From contig NC_134514.1 of the NCBI RefSeq assembly GCF_027942865.1, positions 38,373,765 to 38,437,764 of the forward strand: a stretch of DNA of 64,000 bases. Direction: 5' to 3'. Under the pieces are notes generated by a model. That model did not search any database and had not been told where the DNA came from. It saw nothing but the letters and a program-made list of their open reading frames with translations. The position numbers were made by a program, and so were the translations under genes. Below, piece by piece: positions 2,164 to 47,400 of this stretch (position 1 is the stretch's first letter; each line of letters starts with the position of its first letter). This DNA is from Odontesthes bonariensis. Taxonomy: Eukaryota; Chordata; Actinopteri; Atheriniformes; Atherinopsidae.

Positions 2164-13325
<11,162 letters not shown>

Positions 13326-15164: not shown

Positions 15165-17360
15165 GAATAGAATAGCCTTTATTGTCATTGCACTGCTTCC
15201 GCAGAGCCATCCTGCACCACAAAGGTTAAAAAACAAGGCAAAAAAACAACATAAAGGACATTATAAACATAAAAACATTTGGATAAAAATATATAAAAGA
15301 GTCGGGTAAGACCGACTGTGAGTGAGTGGAAAGTGTGTGTGTCCATGGATGTTTGCAGTCCGATTGGCCCAGGGCAAGAAACTGTCTGTTAGTCTGCCGG
15401 TGCGGGACCTTGTTGCCCTGTAGCGTCTCCCAGAGGGCAACAGATCAAACAGCGGGTGGTAGGCAGGGTGTGAGGGCTCTCCTGTGATGGCCTTGGTTTT
15501 TCTGAGGCAGCAGGATGTGGAGAGGTGTTCCAGGTTGGGCAGCCGATGACCCTTTGGGTAGTGTTTATGACCCTCTGCACCGCCTTCCTGTCCTCAGCTG
15601 TGGAGCCTGAACCACACACCCAGGCAGGATGTTGGAACACTCTCCACAGAGGAGTGACAGAAGGCCAGCAGCAGCTTTGTGTTCAGGTTGTTCTTCCTGA
15701 GGACGCGCAGGAAGTGAAGCCGCTGCTGAGCCTTCTTCACCAGGGCCCGGATGTTAAACGTCCAGGAGTGGTCAGCAGAGATGTGGGTGCCCAGAAACCT
15801 GAAGGTGAGGACAGTTTCCACTGGTTCTCCATTTATGAGGAGGGGGGGTGGTCCTGTCTGTTCTTCCTGAAGTCCATGATGAGTTCTTTTGTCTTATGGA
15901 CATTCAGGGTCAGGTTGTTGTCTGAGCACCACAGTGACAGCTTCTCTACCTCAGCCCTGTATGCTGTCTCATCCTCGTTGCTGATGAGTCCAACCACGGT
16001 GGTGTCGTCGGAGAGCAGTAGAGGGCTCAGAACACAGCCTTGGGGGGAACCAGTGCTGAGTGTGAGTGTGGAGGAGTAGTGGGGGCTGAGTCTCACAGAC
16101 TGTGGGCGACTCCTCAGGAAGTTTTTAATCCAGGTGCAGGGAGCTGAAGCAGTTTGTTAAAAAGAATGTCCGGGATCATTGTGTTAAACGCTGAGCTGTG
16201 ATCCACAGTGTGAGGGCGTCCTCTGTGGACCGGTTTGCCCTGTAAGCGAACTGGTGTGGGTGGAAGGAGGGAGGGAGGCAGTCTCTGATGTGCTGGGAGA
16301 CTGATCGCTCCAGGCACTTCAGACGTGAGGGCGATGGCTCTGTAATCATTCAGACTCACTATGGCAGGTTTTTGGGGATGGGGATGATGGTGGAGGCCTT
16401 CAGACATGTGGGGACAGTGGCATGTGTCAGGGAGAGGTTGAAGAGCTTGGTGAGGATCCCTGCCAGTTGGTCTGCACATGCCTTACTCACCGTCCAGGCC
16501 AGCAGCTTTCCTGGGGTTCACTGCTCTAGGTTTTTCCTCACCGAGAGAGGAGGGGACCTAGAGCCGAGGGCAAAGAAGCTGTTCAGCTCCTCTGCCAGTG
16601 TGCCTCTGCTGCCGCCGCTAGAGGGTGTGGAAGGGGGGTGGCCTTTGTAGTTGGTTAGGGCCTGGATGCCCCTCCACATCTGTCGTGGGTTGTTGTCAGT
16701 CAGGTATCCCTCCATTTTCCTCTTGTAGGAATCCTTGGCCTCTTTGATGCCCCTCCTCAGGTCAGCTCTGGCGGTGCTGTAGAGAGCTCTGTCTCCTTTT
16801 CTGAAGGCCTAGTTTCGAGCTCTGATCAGGGTCTGGACTTCCTTTGTCATCCAGGGCTTTCTGTTTGGGAAGGCCCAGATGCGTCTTTCCTCTGTGACGT
16901 TTTCTACACAGCACTTTATGTAGAAGTGGACAGACTCGGTGTGTGTGTCCAGGTCCTGATGTTCAAAATATGCTCCACTCTGTGCAGGCAAAGCAGTCCT
17001 GCAGCTGGGCAAGAGCCTTTTCAGGCTGGACTTTGATGGTCTGTGAGGCCGGTTTTGTTTAAGGAGGCGTCCTGAGGGGAGTGTAGGCCCGGAAGGGGAG
17101 CAGAGAGAGATGATCTGACTGTCCGATGTGGGGGAGGGGGGTCGCTCTGTTGGCATGCTTGAAGTTTGAATAAACATGATCAAGTGTGTTATTTCCCCTG
17201 GTTGCACACTTGACGTGCTGGTGGAATTTGGGAAGAACAGTCTTGAGGCATGCTCTGTCAAAGTTCCCAGCGGTGATGTGCACGCCATCTGGATGAGCCT
17301 TCTGTTGTTTGGATACCATGAGCTGAAGCTTCTAGACGTTTGTGCAGAGGTCAACAGCTA
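15165..17360 (-). pseudogene. Decayed non-LTR retrotransposon (Rex1/CR1-like), endonuclease to 3' tail
   Basis: Minus-strand pieces follow ORF2 order. At 17319-17059 is the end of an endonuclease domain with PKFHQHVKCATRG, NNTLDHVYSNFKHA and the catalytic GQSDHLSL. At 16479-16114 comes the early RT region. At 16096-15833 is [14 protein letters not shown] joined straight to [10 protein letters not shown], then [15 protein letters not shown]. At 15821-15594 are FRFLGTHISADHSW and AQQRLHFLRVLRK, and at 15640-15389 the C-terminal DRKAVQRVINTTQRVIG region. The 3' end carries an AATAAAGGCTATTCTATTCT-type tail at about 15163-15182. The stretch normally found between the SPLL and ADDT motifs is missing, and there are frameshifts and stops, so it cannot move by itself. 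It occupies the middle of the PPM1D-APPBP2 intergenic region. Confidence 0.8.
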
Positions 17361-22300: not shown

Positions 22301-24986
22301 GCTTAGTGCATTTTGATGACAGGCTAGACATCAGCTTTTTTGTTTGTTTGTTTTTGCGAAACTCACGAATAGTAGTATTTTCCAAAGTATCAGTTAAACA
22401 TACCCAAAATAGGACAGATACTCCACTCATGTAATTACAGATCAGACTCTGTGCAGCTTACTGACTTTCATTGTTTTATCCTTTTTCATCCCATTTGTGC
22501 ATGTGTGTGTTGTCTCAGCTTTACCAGCAGGGTCGGCTCTGCCAGCTGGGGGGAGAGTTCTGTGAGCTGGAGGTATTTGCTAAAGTGCTGCGGGCCTCAG
22601 ACAAAAGGTAAGGGTAATGTTGATGGTATTTCCACACACCATCCCCACTGGCCCACCAGTTATCTTAGAAAATAGTTCTCATCACTGTGTCCACTAGGGA
22701 TGCTCCGATCAGCATTTTTGGGGGCCGATCCGATCACCAATCACAGGAATCCTAAATCTGCCGTTTACCGATCACAAAATCGATGGGCGAATAATAAAAA
22801 TCCTCAATGTTGTGTATTTACAATCTAGCCTTGTGCACCACTTAAAGTGTTAAAACATATATATTTGTACTAAAATAAATAATAAATACATCAGCTTTTT
22901 ATTTATGTAAACATTACATGCCCTTTCAAGAGCAATAGATAAATAAAAAACCAACAACTAAACCTTAACTGAGGGAATAAGCAAGTAAGAATAAGCAACC
23001 AAAATGTATTCGGTTGCTCATTCTTACTTGCTTATTCCCTCATAACAATATATAAGAATAAGCACAGTTTTTAAATAACCTTAACATTTTTAAAAAACCT
23101 TGGCACAAACCAACAACTAGACATTAACTGTGAGGGAATAAGCAAGTAATAATAAGCAACTGAAATGTATTCTAGAATACATTTCGGTTGGTATACATCC
23201 GTTAGGTATTTGCGTCCGGGGGGGGCATAGCGTGGCTCAAGGCACGATATCAACCGTCGGAACCCCGTGTCCTCCACCACAGAAAGAGGCTGCTTGTCAA
23301 GTCCAATGAACTCCATAAGCGTTTTTGTTATATCCCTCCACCTTTTACTGTCCCTGCTGCATGGCTCCAGGCGTTTAAACGTTTCACTGACGGTGAGCTG
23401 AGTGACGGTTGGGGTTTGTTTTCCTCGCGCTTGTTTTTCATACTCTCCGTATTCCGTAGTGTGCCGCGTTCTTAAATGTCTGATTAGGTTAGTGGTATTA
23501 AATTGTCGTTGTGTAATGCCACCTCTTGGAATTGCGGCCTCGCATATTTTACAAACTTTTTATGTCTTTTTGCGAAATGGCGAAAAAATTCCACACCGGA
23601 GAACTCATATCAGCTTCTTTCATGAGAGCAGAAAACAGTCGCCGGTAAGTTACGGGAAAGAAAACCGTTTAATTCATATAAATTTAACATAAATCTCATT
23701 GATAATTTCATATAAAGTCACACGGAGAAAAACAGTCTCGGGTAAAAAACAAAAAAAACCCTTTTTTTTCCTTTTTTTTCTTTTCTTTTTTTTTTTTTTT
23801 AATTTGCGATCGGCTTTTCTGATCGGCACTTCAAGAGCCCACCGATCAACCTGTTTAGGGTCCATATCGGCCGATCACGATCGGCGGCCGATCGATCGGA
23901 GCATCCCTAGTGTCCACTTATTAGATTGTTAGGAGCTGGTAATGCTGTATGTGTTGAAAAATGTCTACAGACACACTAAGGCTACGGCTACACGGGTACG
24001 AAAATTCTTGCAACCACACGGCAACGCTGCTGTAAAGACTCAGGTCCAGACGAAAACGGATGAAACGATGCAGTACACACGCCACTGTGTCACGCCACGC
24101 TGTGAGACAATAGAGAAGTCTCACAGCGTCAACGTTTGACTGACGCAAAAACGTTTTCGCTGTAATAATGGAAATGAAACGACCTCGTTTTCAAATCTTC
24201 CCACTCTGGAACCCGTTCTCAAAAACTATCGTTTTGGGGTAGTGGGAACGCCGGCTCCGTGTGGCCGCGACAGCCAAACGATAAGAAAAAGTATCGTTTA
24301 CAGTGAAAAACGTTTTCGTGTAGCCGCAGCCTAATGCTAGTAGTATGTTTTGATGAATGCATTTATTGAATTTGAAGTTATGGTCCAAAACTAGATAATT
24401 TGTTTTAATTTGCCTGAATGAAACACTACTGCACCCCCAGCAATAGCGTTATTGTTTTTTAGGTTGTCTGTCTATCACACTCATCTAAATTCAATTTCAA
24501 TGTAAAGGTGAATTGGACCCAATATACCTTTTTTCTTTCTTTCTAAAGCCATTAGTGAGAAGTATTGTTTCGGGGGGTGACACTAGCAAGATTTTTAACA
24601 GATACTGATGTGAGCCATTTATCTGAAGTATCTGCTGACACATAGCCTCCATCCAATAGTTACATTTGCCTCCAGAAAATGGTCGTAAACTACACTGAAA
24701 GTAGTGCTGGGCGGTGTACCGGTTCACACCGAATACCGGTTTATAATTTCATTATGATATGAATTTTTAATATACCGCCATACCAGTGTATTTGATTACA
24801 CAACGGGGGAACGCTGCGTCGTGCGACATTGTTTGAGATGGGACCCTTTTCAGTGTTGCGCTTCTAAACACGCATGTTTACTGTCTATTTTTAACGCTAT
24901 TTAAAAAATACTCGTATTCGTTAAGCTGCATTTCCTTTCCCTGCTCTCCCTCCGTCTCTGTCAGTCATGCGTCTCTCTCACATAGC

Positions 24987-35333: not shown

Positions 35334-37569
35334 ACAATGTTTTGTGATTAGTTTTTTTTCTCTCCCTCTTTTAAACTGGACCATCAGCCTCCATCAGTGC
35401 TGTCCAAAATCTCATCAGATTTCCCACTGAGGAGCTGAAAGCCTTGCTCACAGCGCTGTTGTGCTGTCGTGAACCAGTGGTGAACAGGACAAAAAAAACT
35501 GTCCATGGCATGTGTTTTTAAGAATTTATGTCCGTGACAGTTTATTTGACAGCTGCAGAACTTTTAAATGATCAATTCATTCAAGTTACAGGAGTGAGAC
35601 ACTGATGGCTCATCTCCCAGCGCTATGTGGTTGTTACCATTGGCTTTTTTTTTTTTCCCTTTCAACTGTCAGCATTATATTTTTACTAAAGCACATATTT
35701 CAAATGAACTACATGTCAGGATCTCTTGTATTTGGTTAGAGAACTAAGACCAAGATATGAAATTGTCTCTTTTTTTCTCAGTGTTCTCCAGTCAAACACT
35801 AAACATGTCCTGTAATTTATTGGCAAACTTATGTAGAGATCCAGTATCTGTTTGACACTATAAGATATTAAAGCTGAATATAAAGCAACGGGAGTCTTTG
35901 ATCCTGAACAGTATATTCAGATGAGTTTGATCTGTTTTTTAAGTTCTAAAACAGTATACCGAGCAATCCATGTTTTTTTTTTTTTGTTTTTTTTTAACTT
36001 ATTCAAAAGCCTCAATTCCTCTGAAACAATCTTAGAACCTTTAATACTGAAATGAAATGGGATAGAGCAGCAGGTGCAGAGACCATCTGTATTTGAGGTA
36101 AGTGAGATCCAGTTTTGCTGATATTTTAGAGTTGAAATGGAACATGAGTGCTGCTGAACTGAGGTGAGCATGACTTCTGGAACTGAGTAGGGAAATAAAT
36201 GATGAGATTTTGTACAGTACAATCCAGGCTGAAAACCAATGGTAGGCATTAATATCTGCTCCATTGCCATGTGATGCCTTGAATAAATAGCCCACTGATT
36301 TGTTTTGTTTCTACATGAATGAATGAGGGAGATGAGCTTTGCCTTCATTCTTGCTGGACATGTCCCTTTCTGGCAGTGCCGTGATTGGCTGTACCTGAGG
36401 AGGGGTACAGCCCTCGCCCCCCCATAAAAGGTCGCTCTTCTGAACCCGAAATGCTTCGACTTTGAAACAAACGCACGGCACACCTCTCCTGGGTCACAGA
36501 GAGCAGTTCTACAGAAATACAACAGATCATAAGTGACATGACAAATGCATACAAGTGATAAATGAATGGGGGGAGAAAAACAAAAAAAAAAATCAAGCCG
36601 CCCCATGCTCCTACACTGAATGTGACTTCAGTCAAAGATCACATGCTGAGTTAATGAATTAAATTCTGTGTTAGAGAGGCTACTGTTCTGGAGCCGCTCA
36701 CAAGCATCTTCTGCTTTGGATTTTCTTTCTACCACATGTGAAAGTTAAAAAAAAGCATCTTCATGTGAAGCAGTTCCTGTCCTAACTCAAAGTGAAGCGT
36801 CAATTTCTATTTTTTTTTTTTTAATCCATCGACAATGACAGAGAAAGCACCTGATGACCACCTCCTGGTCGTCATGGTGATCTAATGAACTCGGAAATGG
36901 AGTAGTATCGTGTTGGGTTCTTAAAGACTGAGCAAAGCTGGGATTTCTCCAGCAGGCCTGTTTCTCGTTTGGATAAGATGGACACCAAATGCAACGATGG
37001 GATGTTTTCTGTTATTCTGATACTGCTTCACTGTTAGATGAAAAACACATTAAAAATGTATTACCGTTGACCACTATGGATTCCTCTTCTTTGTCTTTAT
37101 GCTGTACATGAGCTTATAATACATTCTTTCATTAGGACTTTAAATACAACTGACTACACCTTAAAATTTAGGGGCATGCTGAGATTTACATGTGCAGAGT
37201 GGTTCATGGTCCATCAATTACCAACTAATTCTATTCACAATAATGATCTTTTCAGTGAAAGTAAAATATATGAAAGTTTTAATAAATATGAAAGCCACAG
37301 GCTCGCTACCTTTTTTCCTGTGTACTGTATTTTGTCAATATAGAAAACAAAGACTTTAATAAGAAGCATTGTCCACTAAAGGAAACCCAAGTTGGCCCCT
37401 TAGAGGAGTCAAATAAATTATACAAACAGACCTTTAAAATGATTTATGTAACCAAACCCATTGAAGTGTTTTAAATTCATTAGACTTATGTTTGCTAATC
37501 AAACCGGATGCATTCAATCACCATTGAAATTATTTTGCAAAAAGTCAAGTTTTATTTTTGTCCTGTATA

Positions 37570-38025
37570 CATATGTATACAAAAGTATTCACTCACTCAC
37601 CCAAATAATTAAATTCAGGTGTTTTAATCACTTCCATGTCCACAGGTGTATATATTCAAGCACCTCAGCCTGCAGACGGCTCCCAGCTCTGTGGAAACAG
37701 TTTGGGGACGGCCCCTTCCTGTTCCAACATGCACCAGTGCACAGAGAAAGGTCCATAAAGACATGGAGGAGCCAGTTTGGTGTGGAAGAACCTGACTGGC
37801 CTGCACAGAGTCCTGACCTCAACCCGATAGAACACCTTTGGGATGAATTAGAGCAGAGACTGTGAGCCAGGCCTTCTGTCCAACATCAGTGTCTGACCTC
37901 ACAGATGAGCTTCTGGAAGGATGGTCAAAAACTCCCATAAACACTCCTAAACCTTGTGGAAAGCTTGCCCACTTAAGTTCATATGTGTGTGAAGGTAGAT
38001 GAGAGAATACTTTTGATAATATAGT
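37570..38025 (+). pseudogene. Tc1/mariner-type fragment with transposase C-terminus
   Basis: The plus-strand frame ends EPDWPAQSPDLNPIEHLWDE then LEQRL and stop, the classic end of a Tc1/mariner transposase. TATACAAAAGTATTC near 37576 and the inverse of GAATACTTTTGATAATATA near 38005 look like terminal inverted repeats. The N-terminal DNA-binding and most of the catalytic domain are gone, so this is an internally deleted copy. Confidence 0.75.
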
Positions 38026-38132
38026 TTATTTATATAAATAAATAAAAATATATCGTGTACATGTAAAATAAAGCTTTCCCTTTGGTGGATGCTCTTTTAC
38101 ACAATGGAATAGAGCAGCCATCTACTGACAAT

Positions 38133-39342
38133 GGCCCTCATTTATCAAACTTGCGTAAGACGAAAAACGTGCGTAGGTCGTGTGTACGTTCTTTTCTGCG
38201 CAAAGGTTGGCATTTATCAAATCCATCGTGAGCGCAGGAAAGATGAAATCGCCACGACAGGTCTGAGGCCGTGTACGCACTTTTCCATTTGGACTTGCGG
38301 TGACTGCAATAGCATACATAAACAGCAGCGTCACTAGTGCGTGCCTTATGAGTCGCAACAAATCCCTTGGTTAAAATTACAGACTTATCACTTCAAAGAA
38401 GGCCCATGTTTTATTTGACTTCAACATAAATATAAACATAAACGCAAATTAAATAAATTAAACAAGTACAACTCCGTAATTGGAAGAGTGATGGCTCATT
38501 ATTCAACCGCGCACCCTCACACCGAACAGGAGAGGCGCTTTAACACTGCGCACTGTGGAGAGGTTAGGGCACCTAAAGGGCAGGTGGATCTGTCTCTCGG
38601 CTGCGGGGGAACCCTTCTATATACGCCCGAAAAGGTATGCAATATTATTATTGCATGCGGGGTTCACATTGCCCAAAAAAATGGAGTGCCATTTCCAGAT
38701 GTACATCCAGAGGACCCCGTACCCAGAGATCCCACCAGCCTGCACATTCTGTTATTCAAGGAAAAAAGACGTAGCTCCGATCAGGCCAGCCACCCTCTCC
38801 TCCAAGGCACTCAAATCCAAACCTGGATCAGAGCCCCCCCCCCCCCCCCCCCCCCCCCTGTTTGTGACATGCTGCGTCCGAGAGCTGCGACCTTTTTTGT
38901 GGCCAATTTCATATCGGACCACTTCTTCCTGATCTTATTGGAGAAAAAGTAAAACATCGTTCAATTTTAGATTTCATTTAATCTGGAGTTTATCACATTT
39001 TATTGACCATCACAGTAGGGGAAAATACATAACTCGTCCGGTCTGCGATTTACATCGCCAACGCTGTTGGCAGCCGTCCCAGCTGTCAACAGCGTTGACA
39101 GCGTTTCTTTGCCGTCTTTTGTCTATCCATGTCGCAAATCTAGAGGTGCGGCCCTTTTATAGAAGGCGTGGTTAGGATCATTACGATGGATTTCACCCGC
39201 CAGATTTATCAACAGCCGCTCTGTTTTACGATGGGATTGGTGTGGTACGCATGTTTTGTAAATCTCACTTGAGCTTCTGCGTACGACGAGTTCTCCGCTC
39301 ATATCTACGATGGTTTCTACGACGGCTTGATAAATGAGGGCC
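38133..39342 (+). mobile_element. Harbinger-type element with transposase C-terminal remnant, 1210 bp
   Basis: Terminal inverted repeats GGCCCTCATTTATCAA are exact over 16 bp at the two ends. At about 38500-38715 the plus strand reads RRFNTAHCGEVRAPKGQVDL and LLYTPEKVCNIIIACGVHIA then QKNGVPFPD, which matches the C-terminus of Harbinger (HARBI1-like) transposases. The rest of the enzyme is absent. A run of about 30 C lies near 38828-38858. I could not identify a 3-bp duplication. The right end stops about 10 bp short of the stop codon of the neighbouring minus-strand phosphatidyltransferase gene, so that gene's 3' UTR would fall inside the element. Confidence 0.75.
38999..39004 (-). terminator. 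Candidate polyadenylation signal for the phosphatidyltransferase gene
   Basis: AATAAA on the minus strand, about 350 bp downstream of the stop codon and inside the Harbinger element. A second minus-strand AATAAA lies at about 38410-38416. Confidence 0.4.
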
Positions 39343-39352
39343 GTTGAGTCTT

Positions 39353-42300
39353 TTAGTTCTTCTTCTCTGGCTCATCACTGATGAGGTATTTAATGTGTGT
39401 CCAGATGCACCACACCTGCAAAGAAACCCATGGAACGCATTTATGAGAGGCAAGTATTTCAAAGCAACTTTTGTCATGTCAGTGCTCAGGACAGGTTGCT
39501 GGGTGTTTAAGGGAAAGCTCCAACTTACCTCAGCTGACAGAGCCAACAGACGCCCCACAGCCAACAGCACGGCCCCCATAACCTGGATGGAAACAGGCAG
39601 ATCCAACCAGCTGGACAGCAGACCCCTCTCATACGCATACAGCCACAAAGGAAGGCAGTGCAGCCCGCTCACCACCCACACACCGAGGGGGGTCCGAAAC
39701 CCTGACAGCACAAAGACTTATTCAGAGCAAAACAATACATCCACGTTGCTTTATTTACAGTAGAAGACCTGTTACCGTTTGCCATGATGGCCTGGATGAG
39801 GCCAGGACTGCTGGTGAAGCTGTTTTTCCACCGGTCACCTCTGGTGTTGTGGTTACACACAAACACACACCATTCCAGTGAAGACACCAGCCAGCCCCAC
39901 TGAAATGCAATGCATGCAGGACATCTGGTAAGAAGCCATTATCAGCCGTCATTCAGCATGGGTAACGCACTCAACTGAGCCTTTGAACTGGACCACTGTC
40001 ATTCTAACAGTATACATGCACAAGAGGAGAATGGACTTATTAACTCAAGAATTGACGCTGAAGACAGTGAAAAAGGAATTTATGACACTGCAGTTATAAA
40101 ACAACTCATCGTCTTGATGGGCTGCTTTTCTATCACAGCTTCTGACATGTTTAGCCATCTGACGAAAGAAAAACAAACATTTATGAAGAAGAGAAGCTTT
40201 ATTGGGAATTGAGTTGTATTAAAATACTCGTAGGCTTCACTTTTTTAACAAAAAGATGTAATGTTGAGCGTATACATGCAGGAAGGATTTCATCCCCTAT
40301 CGCGTTATCTGCATGCGTTAGTTCTGGTTTTCAGTTGCACTCACATATTTACATGTATTTCTGTCCAACTTATGCAATCATTTGTTTTCTTCTGGCATCA
40401 TGTAAATGTGCTTACTCAGGTGTCAATGTTAACAGTTTTAAATGTTACGTTTAAAGTACATTTTGTTAATAACACATATAGTTTTACCTAAGTTGGAATC
40501 TAAATCAAGATGTTTTTCTTCTAATTGAGTATTTTGGAAGTGTAGAGCTGGTATTGAGATAAAAAATGAAAGCCTAACCAACACATCTGTGTGAATGTAT
40601 GCTTCAACCATCACACCTCTGACAGCAGACTCCACAGCATGCCTCTGCCCAGATTGTCCACAACGACATCCAGCCATGCCCCCAATCTGGAGGTCTGACC
40701 AAATTTCCTTGCCAACCAGCCGTCCACTCCTGCACACAGGAGAAGACAAGATTCCTGAATCATTATGAATGGAGCTGACCAAATAAACAGTTTGTTGTAT
40801 TCAGAAAGAAAAATAAGGCACTGATGGAAACATAAAAAGGCATCAACTTTCATGGGAGACAAGGCAAATGATGATAAAGAAACCCATTTTGATAACATCC
40901 AGTCCAGGAAAGAATGCTCTCTGGGAGGCAGACTCCCATTGGTCAGCCACAGCAGAGCTTTGGGACTTATTGCAGATGGGCCATGATAACGTATGCCACT
41001 GCGTGAGCAATAGAAGTGTCTTAAATGGAATAAAGCTGCAATTCATGTTTCACTTGGAAACAAAGATCTGAATATGGTGCAGATGCTCCGCTGCCGTATC
41101 TTTGTAAATAATGGCTCGATCCCGTACATATGATCCGCAGTTCTATAACAGCCAGCAGCAGGGACACTCCAGCTCTGTTTCAATCCTTCAGGAGCATAAG
41201 CTCCAAACTCTCCACTGCAGAACTCAGACCTTATAGTGGAACTGAGAGTTAGCTGCCACCTGCTTAATGCTGTGCCAGCTCACACTCCTTCAGGCACCCA
41301 CCAAACAGAATCTCTGAAGTCATCTGGTAGTACGAAGGAGCAAGAAGTTAGCAGCAAATCCGTCATGTCCTGAGAGAAGCAGAGAGGCGCATCCATGGAC
41401 CGGGCTCGTTGTGGCCAGAACAACCTTCAGATGCTTGATCAGTCCGAGCTGGAGCCTTCCAGCACCAGCCCTAAACCAATCGCTTTGATTGGTTTAGGGA
41501 TATCTGAGGCCAACTCAGGGGCGAGGCTCGGGTATTTTTAGTGGTGCCAGGGCACCACCGTGAGATAGGTCGGCACCCCCTGGCTCAGCACATTTTCAAA
41601 ATATTATATTATGCAAAAACACTTTTTTTTTGCTCAAGGATGCATTATTTTAGTGACCATTTTATTTATTTGTTTTTGTTTTAACTCTTTACTCCCAAAA
41701 TAAATGTTGAGTTATCTTCAATATTTGTCTCAGGCTCTCTGTTATCCCTGTCAAGCCACAGTCTTTTGAAATGAAGAGGTCCAAATTGAATGTTGTAGGG
41801 GAAAACACTACTCAAAGCAAAACTAATACGGCTCCAAAATTTATAAACGTACTAGTTCGCCTCAATTAGTGAGAAATAATGTGCCTCTGTGAGCACTGGG
41901 GGCTGGGCCCCCCTAAAGACCAGATCCTAAAATCGCCCCTGGGCCAACTCAACACCTTCCTCTTTGTCCTATTCCTAAAACAAAGGTTTTTTTTACAGAG
42001 TGGCAGGTGTACACTGTGGACATGAAAAGTTGTAACGTTAGGGGAGGTGGCACCAAGGACCTGAGAGATTTCAAATCACAACTTTCTTTCATCTTGTTGC
42101 ACATCTATTCACCGTGTACAGAAAGAATCCAGAATCAGACCAGGACTCTGCTGATCATTGCATTCTGACAGCAAGCCCACTGAGAGGCATCAGCTCTGCA
42201 AAGAAAAATCTAATAGTGTTCAAAATGTTGCAGTGTGTGAGAACACTGAGAGGCATTCAACTCAGAATCAGATTTCTTGTATATGCAAATATATTGGCCC

Positions 42301-42906
42301 ATAAAGACTCCCATGGCAAACTCTCTCAGTGGGCTTTTGAAGTGGTCACATCAGGAAATAAATGACTTGAAGGATTATGGCAATCTTGGATCAAATATGC
42401 ACAGTATTGGTGATATTAGCAGGAAAGTGTAGATTGTAAAGGAAAATTGGAGCAATGAATTGGCATACTTCAGCACCTGAAAAGCTTTGAAATGGTGTTC
42501 TGAAAGTGGAAAGAAAGGCACAGAGGCTGCCTCACCTCACCATCAAGGGCCGTGAACACGGAGTACAGAAGCAGGAAGAGCGCTGGGGTCTCACAGGCAG
42601 CCCACGCAGCAAACACGAGGCTAATCCTGGCGTATCCTGAAAGAGACAGGTGACTCATCACAACAGCCAACCGAACAAACTCACCAAGGACCCTTCTGAA
42701 ACCAGCATGGCTTTTTAGGGGCCACGTTTTTACTTCCCAGCTATGCAATGTGTTCCATTAGGCTAACGAGCTCATTTATGTTTGTAATGACGTCATCTGA
42801 GCTAACTGTGAACTATCTGCTAATTCATATACATGATATGATATTCTCAAACAAAAACCAAGTCTTTCTCACCAACGATATTGGGCCAGTACAGCAGAAC
42901 TCCCAT
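39353..42906 (-). CDS. Phosphatidylinositol-synthase-like CDP-alcohol phosphatidyltransferase, six exons, complete
   Basis: Predicted membrane enzyme that joins a CDP-activated lipid to an alcohol head group. Coding exons on the minus strand: 42906-42873, 42636-42541, 40729-40617, 39899-39776, 39701-39529, 39415-39353. All introns are GT-AG and the phases are 1,1,0,1,0, giving 200 aa (human PI synthase 213). The N-terminus reads PNIVGYARI, as in PI synthases. The full family motif is intact: D43-x2-D46-G47-x2-A50-R51-x8-G60-x3-D64-x3-D68, in ALDGVDGWLARKFGQTSRLG. The rest is hydrophobic with several membrane segments and ends EPEKKN, a lysine-rich tail like that of PI synthase. An in-frame stop codon lies three codons before the ATG, which supports the start. 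The middle region (SSLEWCVFVCNHNTRGD) aligns only loosely with PI synthase, so the head-group substrate is uncertain. I recall no such gene between APPBP2 and USP32 in human. Confidence 0.88.
41516..41941. mobile_element. hAT-superfamily MITE, 426 bp
   Basis: Begins CAGGGGCG and ends CGCCCCTG, flanked by an exact 8-bp duplication GGCCAACT (41508-41515 and 41942-41949). No coding capacity. It lies in intron 2 (40730-42540) of the phosphatidyltransferase gene. Confidence 0.9.
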
Positions 42907-43503
42907 CTCCGGTCAGAATGATACAGAGTCGGCTCAAGCCACTGAACAGTTCAGTGAACTGAGTTCAGAGATAATCTGCCAGCCCTGACTCCGCGCCACA
43001 TAAACAACCTGCATAAACTGGAACATATCCAAGTGATATCTTCATTTTGGTGCCACCGTGGAGCGTCCAGGAGCCGGCAAGTATAGCCTACGGGTTCAGC
43101 TGTGTGCGCGCGCCTTCAGCTGGAGCTCCATGACGCTGACGCACGCGCGTTCGCTGACCTCCGCCCACACCAAACTCTGGACTAATCTATAGCAGGAAGT
43201 GGAGAGGGTTAACAACCTGTTTTAGTGTTTTTGCTTGTTGTACATGTTGAGGGAATGAAATATTAAATGAAATGATTGGACGTGTGTTACAGATGCAAAC
43301 GGTGACATATTGAAACAAACAGAAGAAGAAATGTCTGTTGGGAAACAGCCGACTTTAAACTGGTACTTTTTTTTTTTTATAGTTGAACTGGGTGACGAGC
43401 CACCATCAGAATAAGATCACCAAGTTCCCTGTTGTCATGACTAATGTGAACACAATTCACACTATTACTGTAGTGAAGGCAAGACATGCTTCCTGAAGTG
43501 ACT

Positions 43504-43633
43504 TTTTTTTAAATACAACTTTATTTTGTTTTACAAGATACAAAAACAGTGCAAAAACATGACAAGTAAAGAGGAACAAATAAGCATACCAAAATAAATA
43601 CATACATAAGTAGTTTAAATAATAAATGAAGAC

Positions 43634-43694
<61 letters not shown>

Positions 43695-43982
43695 ACCATG
43701 GGACATGAACAATGAGGATTACACTGAGTTAAAGAATTCAAATTGGGAGACTAGATTTATAGTTTTGATAGCTTTCTTGTTATTAGAGGAGGAAATTGAC
43801 TTGAAATACATCTGGAGTTCTATCATGAAAGCACAAAAACTGGGTTTCACTTTGGCAAATTTACATTTGTGGATGTAATACTTAGCAATAATTAAAATTA
43901 GATTTATTAAAAAATATTCTTTTTCATTGGTAGCATCACTCTTTATAAAACCAAAAATGACATTTTGCAGAAGGAGCTCAAA
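43504..43982 (-). mobile_element. 5'-truncated L1-like LINE with 16-bp target duplication
   Basis: The insertion is bounded by identical GCTTCCTGAAGTGACT at 43488-43503 and 43983-43998. It begins with a T run, which is the poly(A) tail of a minus-strand element. The minus strand near the far end reads YYIHKCKFAKVKPSFCAFMI, which matches the C-terminus of L1-type ORF2 proteins. A (GA)n tract lies within at 43633-43691. The long exact duplication and tail indicate target-primed reverse transcription. Confidence 0.85.
43633..43691. repeat. (GA)n microsatellite inside the L1-like insertion
   Basis: About 29 GA units with one interruption (GAGGGA). It produces the long Ser-Leu open frames on the minus strand, which are not genes. 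Confidence 0.95.
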
Positions 43983-44059
43983 GCTTCCTGAAGTGACTCT
44001 CAGCCAGTAGATGTCGCTGTGACGTGAAGACGAACATTACACACTTCCTCTTTAGCGAT

Positions 44060-44074
44060 CCACAAGGTGGCGCC
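44060..44074 (+). promoter_or_regulatory. CTCF-like motif upstream of USP32
   Basis: CCACAAGGTGGCGCC is a near-ideal CTCF core, about 390 bp upstream of the USP32 ATG and between two divergent genes. A second weaker match, CCAGTAGATGTCGC, lies at about 44004-44017. Motif match only. Confidence 0.5.
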
Positions 44075-44462
44075 ACATGCACTCCTTCACGGTGGTTATA
44101 TTCCGGAGCTAACGTCCAAACGCACTTCCATCTCTTCGTTACACTGCATACTGATTATAAGTGTATTGTGTAGAATTCATAATCAGAACCAAAACACTTT
44201 GTTGGAGTCCCTGAAGACGAATCAAAAGAGATCACTGTAATCATTTGGGTTCTGTTTACAAGCATCAGAAGGCACCGATCAACTGACTTGTAAAGTGAGA
44301 TCATGTGACAGAATGGAGGCGTCGCTGAAAACATTCACCCGTTCACCACATACACACACCGCCAGGAACCCATTTCACAATAAACGGATAAGACAACAAG
44401 CACTTCTGATCAACTAGATTTGTAACGTTTATTTCCTCAAATCGCTATGAAATGAGGGGAGC

Positions 44463-47400
44463 ATGGGGGCCAAAGAGTCGAGGATAGGATTCCTGTCGTA
44501 TGACGAGGCTGTCAAGAGAGGTAAGCCGAAAACCAAGAGGCCAAACCAACCTTAGTTGCGTTAGCTTAGCTAACTGCCTGCTTTTAGGCTAGCCCGGTAC
44601 AAAAGAGAAGCTCCTGACCACCCGTTAGAATCTGGCGGTTTAGGCTGAATTTCTTCTTTTGTAGGGTAGACGATTGATGAAGATAAATACACAATTTTGA
44701 GTGAACTGTTATGCTCAACTATGTAAATCGGCATCGATGTAGTGCAAAAAAGATGATTAGATTTGTAAGTTTTGCAATAGCTAATACTGTTTTTTCCGCA
44801 GTCGCCTGCACTGAAAACACACTACAATGGACTGCTATAGAACGCAGCTTCCAATAATAAGAGCTTTAATAAATCGTATTTAAATCATCTTTACGTTCAT
44901 TTTAGCCATCCCGAGCTAAATTATTGTTTCTTGAGATATAGAATTTGTACTCGGGGGTGTTTTATGAGGCTTGTGTGTTTACTTATAACCAAGGTCAAGT
45001 TAAATTGGCCCAATGATGGACAGTGGTTGGTATAACGTTCTTCTCATCGCTATGAAAGCGTTGTTTGTATGGCTGAGGAAGGGTGGGTTGACAGGTTACA
45101 ATTTACTATAAAGGTCCTGTTGGTAGCTTTGAAGGATTGTTAACTTTTTTTTTGGCTTACCCACCAGTGGGCTATTTAGCTTTACCACCTAAGCTAACTA
45201 CTGCTGAGTAACGTTAATGTCTCCGCTGCTTCTGGTTTGCATGTTTAGTGGCACAATAGTTAGCTGACATCCAGCTAAAATCCCGGAGGGGAATGCCTTC
45301 GTCTGTCGGTTTTTAAGTCTGGCCATGAGGTAGAGGGTTAACGCTAATCTTTAGTGTTTGTGCTGGTGGGCTGTTAGGTTCTTCTCAACTTCACACATGT
45401 GCTAATAATGTACTAAGAACGTTTAGAACCGCAAATAGATGTGCTTCGCATCGCTGTCGCTGCAGTTTGAGTCTTAAAATGAGCCTTTAAAAAAAAAAAA
45501 AATCCCATTAACAGAGCCATTGGTTTTAAACAAACAGCATGTCACAGGAGCATATATAATGTAAGCTGAACTTGCGTGGAAGCATTTCGTCATGCACAAG
45601 CTCTTATTGTTGGCATACAGGTTGAATATGAATACAGCAAACAAAGCTGCGTTGTAATTTATGTGTAGTCACTGTAAATGGCTGCTGGACTTGTGTAACT
45701 ATGGGCTAACATCAGGAAGCACACTGGAGATCTTATCCTGGATGGCCTTCTGGTTGCACTTTACTCTCTGGGTTTGCAACAGCTGAACTTTGTCAGTCCA
45801 GATTCCAGGAGGTTGTTACACATTGATCCAGGGCTGGGTCATATCTTTACCTGGTTCCCAAAAGGAAGTAGACTGAAATTTCCACTGGATTGATATGTAT
45901 GTCTACAGTGTCAAAAGGTATAAACAATGAAAAGTTTAAATGGCGAGGAGTCCCTATTAATGTCACTCCCAGCCCTGCATTTGTAAAAGCCATTGACCTT
46001 TTTTTGCCTTTGTCTTTCCAGTATCAAATCCTCATGCAGTGGTCTGTGCCATGTCTTAAGCTGATAGCCATTCCTGCTCTGATGATCACATTTGACCACA
46101 CACTCACACTTTCTCTGTCAAAAGCACACAGGCAGTGGAATGATCCAGCTTTATCTGATCAGTCACATGGCAGAATTGTTCATTCCCACACCAGGCTTGA
46201 TTGCAGCAATTATGGGTTCAGTTTTCATGTAAGGTCACTCTGCCAGGATAGTGGTGAAGTAATATTCATCAGACATCCTCTTGGAAAAGTTCCGCTTTGA
46301 GGTTTAATCTTACTTGATTCATTAAAGTGTCACTTCACAGGGTTGACAGTGCATTTATTTACAGTTTGTACAGGAATAATGCCCCTACGGAAAAAAAAGT
46401 TGTGAGGAAATATGTCTGCACCACCTGTTACACTATGTATTAAAACTGTGTGTTAAAAAAAAAAAGTGTAAAGTCGCCAATTAGAGCATATATTTAACTG
46501 ACTCACATGTTTAAGAGTCAACACAACAGATGGACAGAACACCACACCACAATATTTGTCCATGGTTGTAGAGGTGAGAGTCCACTTCCTTTTTCCCAAG
46601 GAGTTAAGTGACAGGTGATTCAACATTTACTCAAAAATGGAGAAAAAACTTCTTGTGTGTGGAGTAATATGCAATATTAGCATGCGTGACAACATTATTT
46701 TTTACGAGTAAATAAAAACTCAGACTTGCATTTGTAAATTATTATTAAAAAGAAACGCTCTTAACTTTGGAAAAAGTGTGTAAACGACCTGCGTAAATGA
46801 TGAATGCCATAGTGTTGGATAGTAGATTTGCATACTCCACGCCCAAAATGATACCATATAAGGCTGTGCTTCCTCTCTCCTGTGCCAGGAAGTGTTGAGT
46901 GTTGAGTCATGAGAATGGCATCAAGGCGCAAAAAGAACAACTTTAGGGCCTTTGATGCATATATGTGTGCAGTCTATTGCTCCGATTATGTTTGGGAATC
47001 CAGCCAAGGCATGAAAGTCCCTCTTAATTTGTACTTGTTGGACAGCGGTGTATGGGAATGTGATGTACCATGGGTGATAAACTGATGAGAGCTTTGATGA
47101 CCAAGGGGAGCGCACAGCTCACAGAGGACTGGGACACCCCCGATCTGTCTCCAATCTCCCTCTGAAAGGTTCCAGTGGCCAAAAATCCAAGGGTGGTGAG
47201 GACCTGGACGTGTGGTGGAACTGGGTTGGATCGGCGTGTTTCTCTCTGGAGTTGTGGCTCTAGCAAGCTGCATATTTACAGCAGCACAGTCCTTGGCAAT
47301 CTAAATCGCGATGTCAGCCATTCGTCTGTCTCCGCAAGGATATCTACACGGTCTCGGAGCACACGCTCTCTTCCAAGAGCCTGACGTGCTAAGACATCCA

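Follow-up and report, generated by a model that had tools for sequence, protein, structure and literature searches.

The class I CDP-alcohol phosphatidyltransferases have a six-helix membrane fold, in which conserved aspartates coordinate metal ions and bind the CDP-alcohol, and the acceptor site takes its shape from later helices. To our knowledge, it is commonly assumed that vertebrates possess a single PI synthase gene, CDIPT. A zebrafish study reports a BLAST search that confirmed a single cdipt paralog (PMC7430711), and a second PI synthase gene is not mentioned in the available passages of PMC3882052 or PMC5902856. In the CDP-alcohol superfamily, excerpts of PMC7569605 describe the sole tmem269 with PS synthase activity.

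Here we describe a gene of the fish Odontesthes bonariensis that resembles CDIPT in its first half and departs from it in the second. Like CDIPT, it has six exons, the same first intron and a donor half that combines PNxxGYAR with the D-x2-DG-x2-AR-x8-G-x3-D-x3-D motif. Unlike CDIPT, it has its four other introns elsewhere and lies on contig C14 rather than C26; the two proteins are about 30% identical overall, with acceptor halves that could not be aligned above shuffles. The gene points to a phosphatidyltransferase activity for which we found no description in the literature searched. Nor did that literature, for which several of our queries were narrow, yield a published description of the gene itself, which may well have been annotated automatically in public databases. 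Given the single cdipt of zebrafish, the gene is either absent from that species or too diverged to have been counted. Where present, a second, diverged gene in fish would change the reading of cdipt mutants.

The gene lies between an APPBP2-like exon and USP32

The window, by which we mean the whole stretch of 64,000 nucleotides that was analyzed, maps to contig C14 of a 945-Mb assembly. It contains a PPM1D-like exon, whose PP2C domain scored above the Pfam cut-off, and an APPBP2-like exon, whose TPR matches fell below it; we take these to be PPM1D and APPBP2 from presumed sequence together with the PP2C and TPR domain matches. With what we take to be the human USP32 N-terminus as query, tblastn picked out 44463, 60033 and 63362 as the sites of three USP32 exons. 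The first coding exon of this divergent neighbor (44463..44519, plus strand; 84% identity over 19 aa) starts at 44463, and the gene described here is oriented away from it. The location proposed when the sequence was first read, between APPBP2 and USP32, is consistent with these matches, the names being partly presumed. Beyond the PPM1D end of the window, at a distance of 127-197 kb, are two T-box genes (C14:38.177-38.247 Mb); in human, TBX2 and TBX4 are presumably arranged likewise beside the PPM1D-APPBP2-USP32 block.

Several other elements were observed in the window. Remains of mobile elements comprise a DDE_3 (Tc1-like) piece at 37452-37865 on the plus strand, a reverse transcriptase piece below the Pfam cut-off at 15833-16156 on the minus strand and a BED zinc finger at 23071-23559 on the minus strand. 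A repetitive stretch at 11290-12042 (plus strand) contains long repeating open frames (LHTPNYTRP...). Three further frames searched gave no match.

A six-exon gene model encodes a 200-residue protein

From ATG to stop, the gene occupies exactly 39353-42906 of the window on the minus strand, and its six exons join without a frame error into a coding sequence of 603 nt (200 aa plus stop). Exon 1 (42873..42906, minus strand, as are all that follow) begins with the ATG and encodes MGVLLYWPNIV and the first base of a G codon, ahead of the donor GTGAGA. Exon 2 (42541..42636) runs from GYARI to ALD and the first base of another G codon, and falls within the span of the Pfam family PF01066 (residues 7-96). 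Exon 3 (VDGWLARKFGQTSRLGAWLDVVVDN; 40617..40729) holds the bulk of the catalytic motif and was also recovered in a genome-wide PF01066 search. The divergent acceptor half begins in exon 4 (39776..39899), residues 82-200 having no Pfam match; exon 5 (39529..39701) contributes residues 128-146 and 159-177, both predicted to be hydrophobic segments, and exon 6 (39353..39415) ends in the stop codon TAA. Each of the five introns is of the GT-AG type, and exons 2-6 are entered in phases 1, 1, 0, 1 and 0. The minus strand carries an AATAAA at 39004, about 350 bases beyond the stop codon.

Codon statistics were consistent with a coding function. Third-position GC was 0.69 in the coding sequence versus 0.36-0.44 in the gene's own introns, and the codon log-likelihood was 45.9. 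For 2000 stretches drawn at random from the minus strand, matched in length and each scored in the best of its three frames, the mean was -77 and the maximum -14.4. The codon table was small (150 PPM1D codons plus CDIPT, itself a homologue of the gene) and one reverse-strand frame of the coding sequence scored 20.2; therefore the margin carries more weight than the exact value. Together, the GT-AG introns, the phases and the codon statistics bear out the six joining exons and the 200-aa protein of the sequence-only reading.

A segment of raised CpG content at 43000..43200 (no strand assigned), 94-294 bases upstream of the ATG, is only suggestive of a promoter: its CpG observed/expected ratio is 0.95, and the surroundings (30000-63000) have a median of 0.34 and a 95th percentile of 1.06.

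The gene is distinct from its relatives in the same genome

We searched the genome with the predicted protein and obtained seven matches up to E 10. Five of these were exons 2-6 of the gene itself; the other two were weak (E 0.018 and 2.3) and contained in-frame stops, and no second copy was found up to E 10. Viral contigs contained no confirmed relative of this protein or of CDIPT.

The CDP-alcohol family search returned at least eight matches up to E 10, at no fewer than seven loci, which we named from their translations. Besides the C14 gene itself, we take these to include a CRLS1-like locus on C2 (two matches), two CEPT/CHPT-type genes on C13 and C3, an EPT1/SELENOI-like locus on C29, a TMEM269-like locus with a PS-synthase-type CDP-alcohol motif (C15:30327092-30327199) and CDIPT (C26:2933540-2939561). 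The name TMEM269 for the C15 locus is our own presumption, prompted by PMC7569605. The CDIPT gene, assembled from the genome, has six exons and encodes 212 aa with 65% identity to a presumed human CDIPT sequence. A zinc-finger exon 8.3 kb from it on C26 is presumably MAZ-like. Also near CDIPT on C26 is a long low-complexity array (record L045, 6305-7496), with several open frames across the two strands.

With an ordinary CDIPT present separately on C26, we rejected the identification of the C14 gene as CDIPT; CRLS1, CEPT/CHPT/EPT and TMEM269 were rejected likewise, each having its own locus. CRLS1 shares the CDP-alcohol motif with the predicted protein but lies apart on C2, matched it at 27.7 bits (BLAST with a CRLS1 piece) and has no intron at PNxxG, its exon running uninterrupted through the point of intron 1. 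TMEM269 and PssA-type PS synthases belong to the same CDP-alcohol superfamily, but the TMEM269-like gene on C15 is separate, and the window was not among the three matches of the PssA profile in the genome. The motif is also common to CEPT1, CHPT1 and SELENOI, though their loci (C3, C13 and C29) are separate.

The donor half resembles PI synthase

The predicted protein has a complete D-x2-DG-x2-AR-x8-G-x3-D-x3-D motif from residue 43 onward, as had been claimed, and matches PF01066 (CDP-OH_P_transf) over residues 7-96 with E 1.3e-11 (45.5 bits; cut-off 22). These features assign the conceptual translation to class I of the CDP-alcohol phosphatidyltransferases. For hhalign, we combined the fish's own CDIPT with three proteins from Cyanobacteria into a PI synthase profile free of presumed sequences; it matched with 97.2% probability, only over residues 2-79. 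Up to the last aspartate of the motif, 12 of 16 PI-synthase invariants were kept. As translated, the protein carries the N-terminal PNxxGYxR and the donor-site residues of a eukaryotic-type PI synthase.

NCBIfam gave 12 weak matches to several families, none at its own cut-off. One of them, the bacterial PgsA profile TIGR00560 (30 bits versus a cut-off of 109; residues 30-192), extended deeper into the C-terminal half than any comparison with a PI synthase. A PDB sequence search returned five weak matches in the motif region, the best at E 0.047. Simple hydropathy indicated four segments, versus five in CDIPT.

The acceptor half has diverged beyond recognition

Beyond the motif, the likeness is lost. 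Residues 83-200 aligned to PI synthases no better than 300 shuffles for all seven partners, and in Pfam residues 82-200 matched nothing up to E 10. In a comparison with the fish's own CDIPT and three PI-synthase-type proteins of Cyanobacteria, only 7 of 29 invariants after the last motif aspartate were kept, in a C-terminal alignment that forced gaps and is unreliable; the R that follows the last aspartate, together with SH, SHK, YY and EL, was mostly replaced. Most of the post-motif set of PI synthase (R, SH, SHK, YY, EL, LLK) appears to be missing from the predicted protein. A PI-synthase-type C-terminal exon overlooked in the gene model was considered and rejected: tblastn with nine queries over 38000-44500 gave no C-terminal match below E 0.1, the best being exon 5 itself (E 0.11) and one on the opposite strand (E 0.21).

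The PI-synthase likeness noted at first reading therefore holds for about residues 2-82, but not past the motif, where most of the invariants are gone. The accompanying proposal of an unknown substrate is reasonable, given an acceptor half that is not recognizable.

Relationship to CDIPT

Gene structure and sequence similarity both relate the gene to PI synthases. Intron 1 interrupts the same glycine codon in the same phase as in CDIPT, whereas the other four introns differ. We estimated by hand the chance of one such coincidence at ~4% (5 x 5 introns, about 600 nt). The shared intron favors a PI synthase gene with introns as the ancestor. In BLAST, the protein scored 44-70 bits against seven PI synthases and ~27 bits against CRLS1 and CEPT pieces; an eighth PI synthase (L020, Cyanobacteria; sequence shortened) gave no match. 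The scores were 70 bits for Arabidopsis and 58 for yeast PI synthase (both presumed sequences), and 50 for the fish's own CDIPT. This lower score to its own CDIPT than to those of a plant and a yeast counts against a recent split from CDIPT.

The tree suggested alongside the sequence-only reading was built from 13 sequences and 79 columns, with three rows of presumed sequence and one a CRLS1 piece. It sampled CDIPT, the CRLS1 piece and bacterial relatives, without CEPT/CHPT or other vertebrates; PGS1 has a phospholipase D fold and hence is no useful comparator. The protein was placed next to the PI synthases without support, and the AU test rejected none of three placements: beside CDIPT (p 0.19), outside the PI synthases (p 0.34) or with the PI synthases (p 0.61). 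Because it misplaced one long-branched cyanobacterial sequence, the tree carries little weight. Of the proposal that the gene is an old paralogue of CDIPT, then, a PI-synthase-type paralogue distinct from CDIPT stands, and the 79 columns fit an early as well as a late origin.

We also considered the chromosomal setting. In human, CDIPT presumably maps to 16p11.2 and USP32/APPBP2 to 17q23, regions that we take to hold the paired genes MAZ/VEZF1, YPEL3/YPEL2, GDPD3/GDPD1 and TBX6/TBX2-4. This pairing would make the C14 gene a genome-duplication copy of CDIPT. T-box genes were found beside the window on C14 and none on C26, the MAZ-like exon lay near CDIPT, and none of five Yippee matches lay on either contig. 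A genome-duplication origin from CDIPT is neither confirmed nor refuted by these results.

A candidate phosphatidyltransferase with a changed acceptor

With its donor site intact and its acceptor half rebuilt, the predicted protein is suggestive of an active phosphatidyltransferase that uses a different acceptor. On balance, we favor a diverged paralogue of PI synthase (CDIPT) that looks functional and is probably a CDP-diacylglycerol-dependent phosphatidyltransferase whose acceptor has changed. Such a protein would sit in an internal membrane, where its conserved aspartates would bind CDP-diacylglycerol (or another CDP-alcohol) and a divalent metal, and the phosphatidyl group would be moved onto a hydroxyl acceptor that fits the remodeled second half. 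Free myo-inositol, used as CDIPT uses it, is probably not that acceptor. Candidates include a different polyol, an isomer or phosphate of inositol, and glycerol or glycerol-phosphate, which sequence alone does not tell apart. Counting against the diverged paralogue are the single intron of five that coincides with CDIPT, the lower BLAST score to the fish's own CDIPT than to plant and yeast PI synthases, the AU test, which rejects neither a place outside the PI synthases nor one beside CDIPT, and the weak PgsA match over residues 30-192; the apparent loss of acceptor-half residues would also fit a dead enzyme. An extended form of the proposal seems to us somewhat unlikely: that of a vertebrate phospholipid synthase of unrecognized specificity, a PI-synthase paralogue (copied from CDIPT by genome duplication, or of an older lineage) whose remodeled acceptor half makes a phosphatidyl-lipid not at present assigned to vertebrates, the gene having been kept by fish and lost by mammals.

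The same observations bear on three other explanations. The PI-synthase-like donor half and the intron 1 shared with CDIPT would suit a second PI synthase, one that uses CDP-diacylglycerol and myo-inositol to make PI, possibly in a particular tissue, and has a fast-evolved C-terminal half; we regard it as unlikely, since the post-motif R, SH, SHK, YY and EL are mostly replaced. The divergent acceptor half would also suit a pseudo-enzyme or a gene early in decay, its catalysis gone whether or not it is expressed. Yet all motif residues, the splice dinucleotides and 200 codons are intact, codon bias is strong, and a decaying gene is not expected to preserve the motif in particular, all of which make this decidedly unlikely. 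Membership in another CDP-alcohol family (of the cardiolipin synthase, PG-phosphate synthase or PS-synthase/TMEM269 type), with an N-terminal likeness to PI synthase that does not reflect close kinship, strikes us as very improbable. The AU test permits a place outside the PI synthases, the sub-cut-off NCBIfam matches include PgsA, and a global alignment scored 79 with a cyanobacterial PgsA versus 87 with CDIPT; against this stand the PNIVGYAR start and the intron shared with CDIPT, the separate CRLS1- and TMEM269-like loci, and the lower BLAST scores to CRLS1 and CEPT pieces than to seven PI synthases.

PI-synthase-like proteins in Cyanobacteria

A pattern scan of genome contigs, with at least 595 pattern matches listed, included at least four cyanobacterial loci, all PI-synthase-like. 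Records L021, L022, L023 (match 3001-3243) and L020 (match 3001-3195) contain eukaryotic CDIPT-type proteins and derive from two Pleurocapsa, a Hyellaceae MAG and a Symploca MAG. Over about 220 aa, the proteins of L021-L023 are 38-41% identical to human CDIPT (presumed sequence) and to the CDIPT of this fish.
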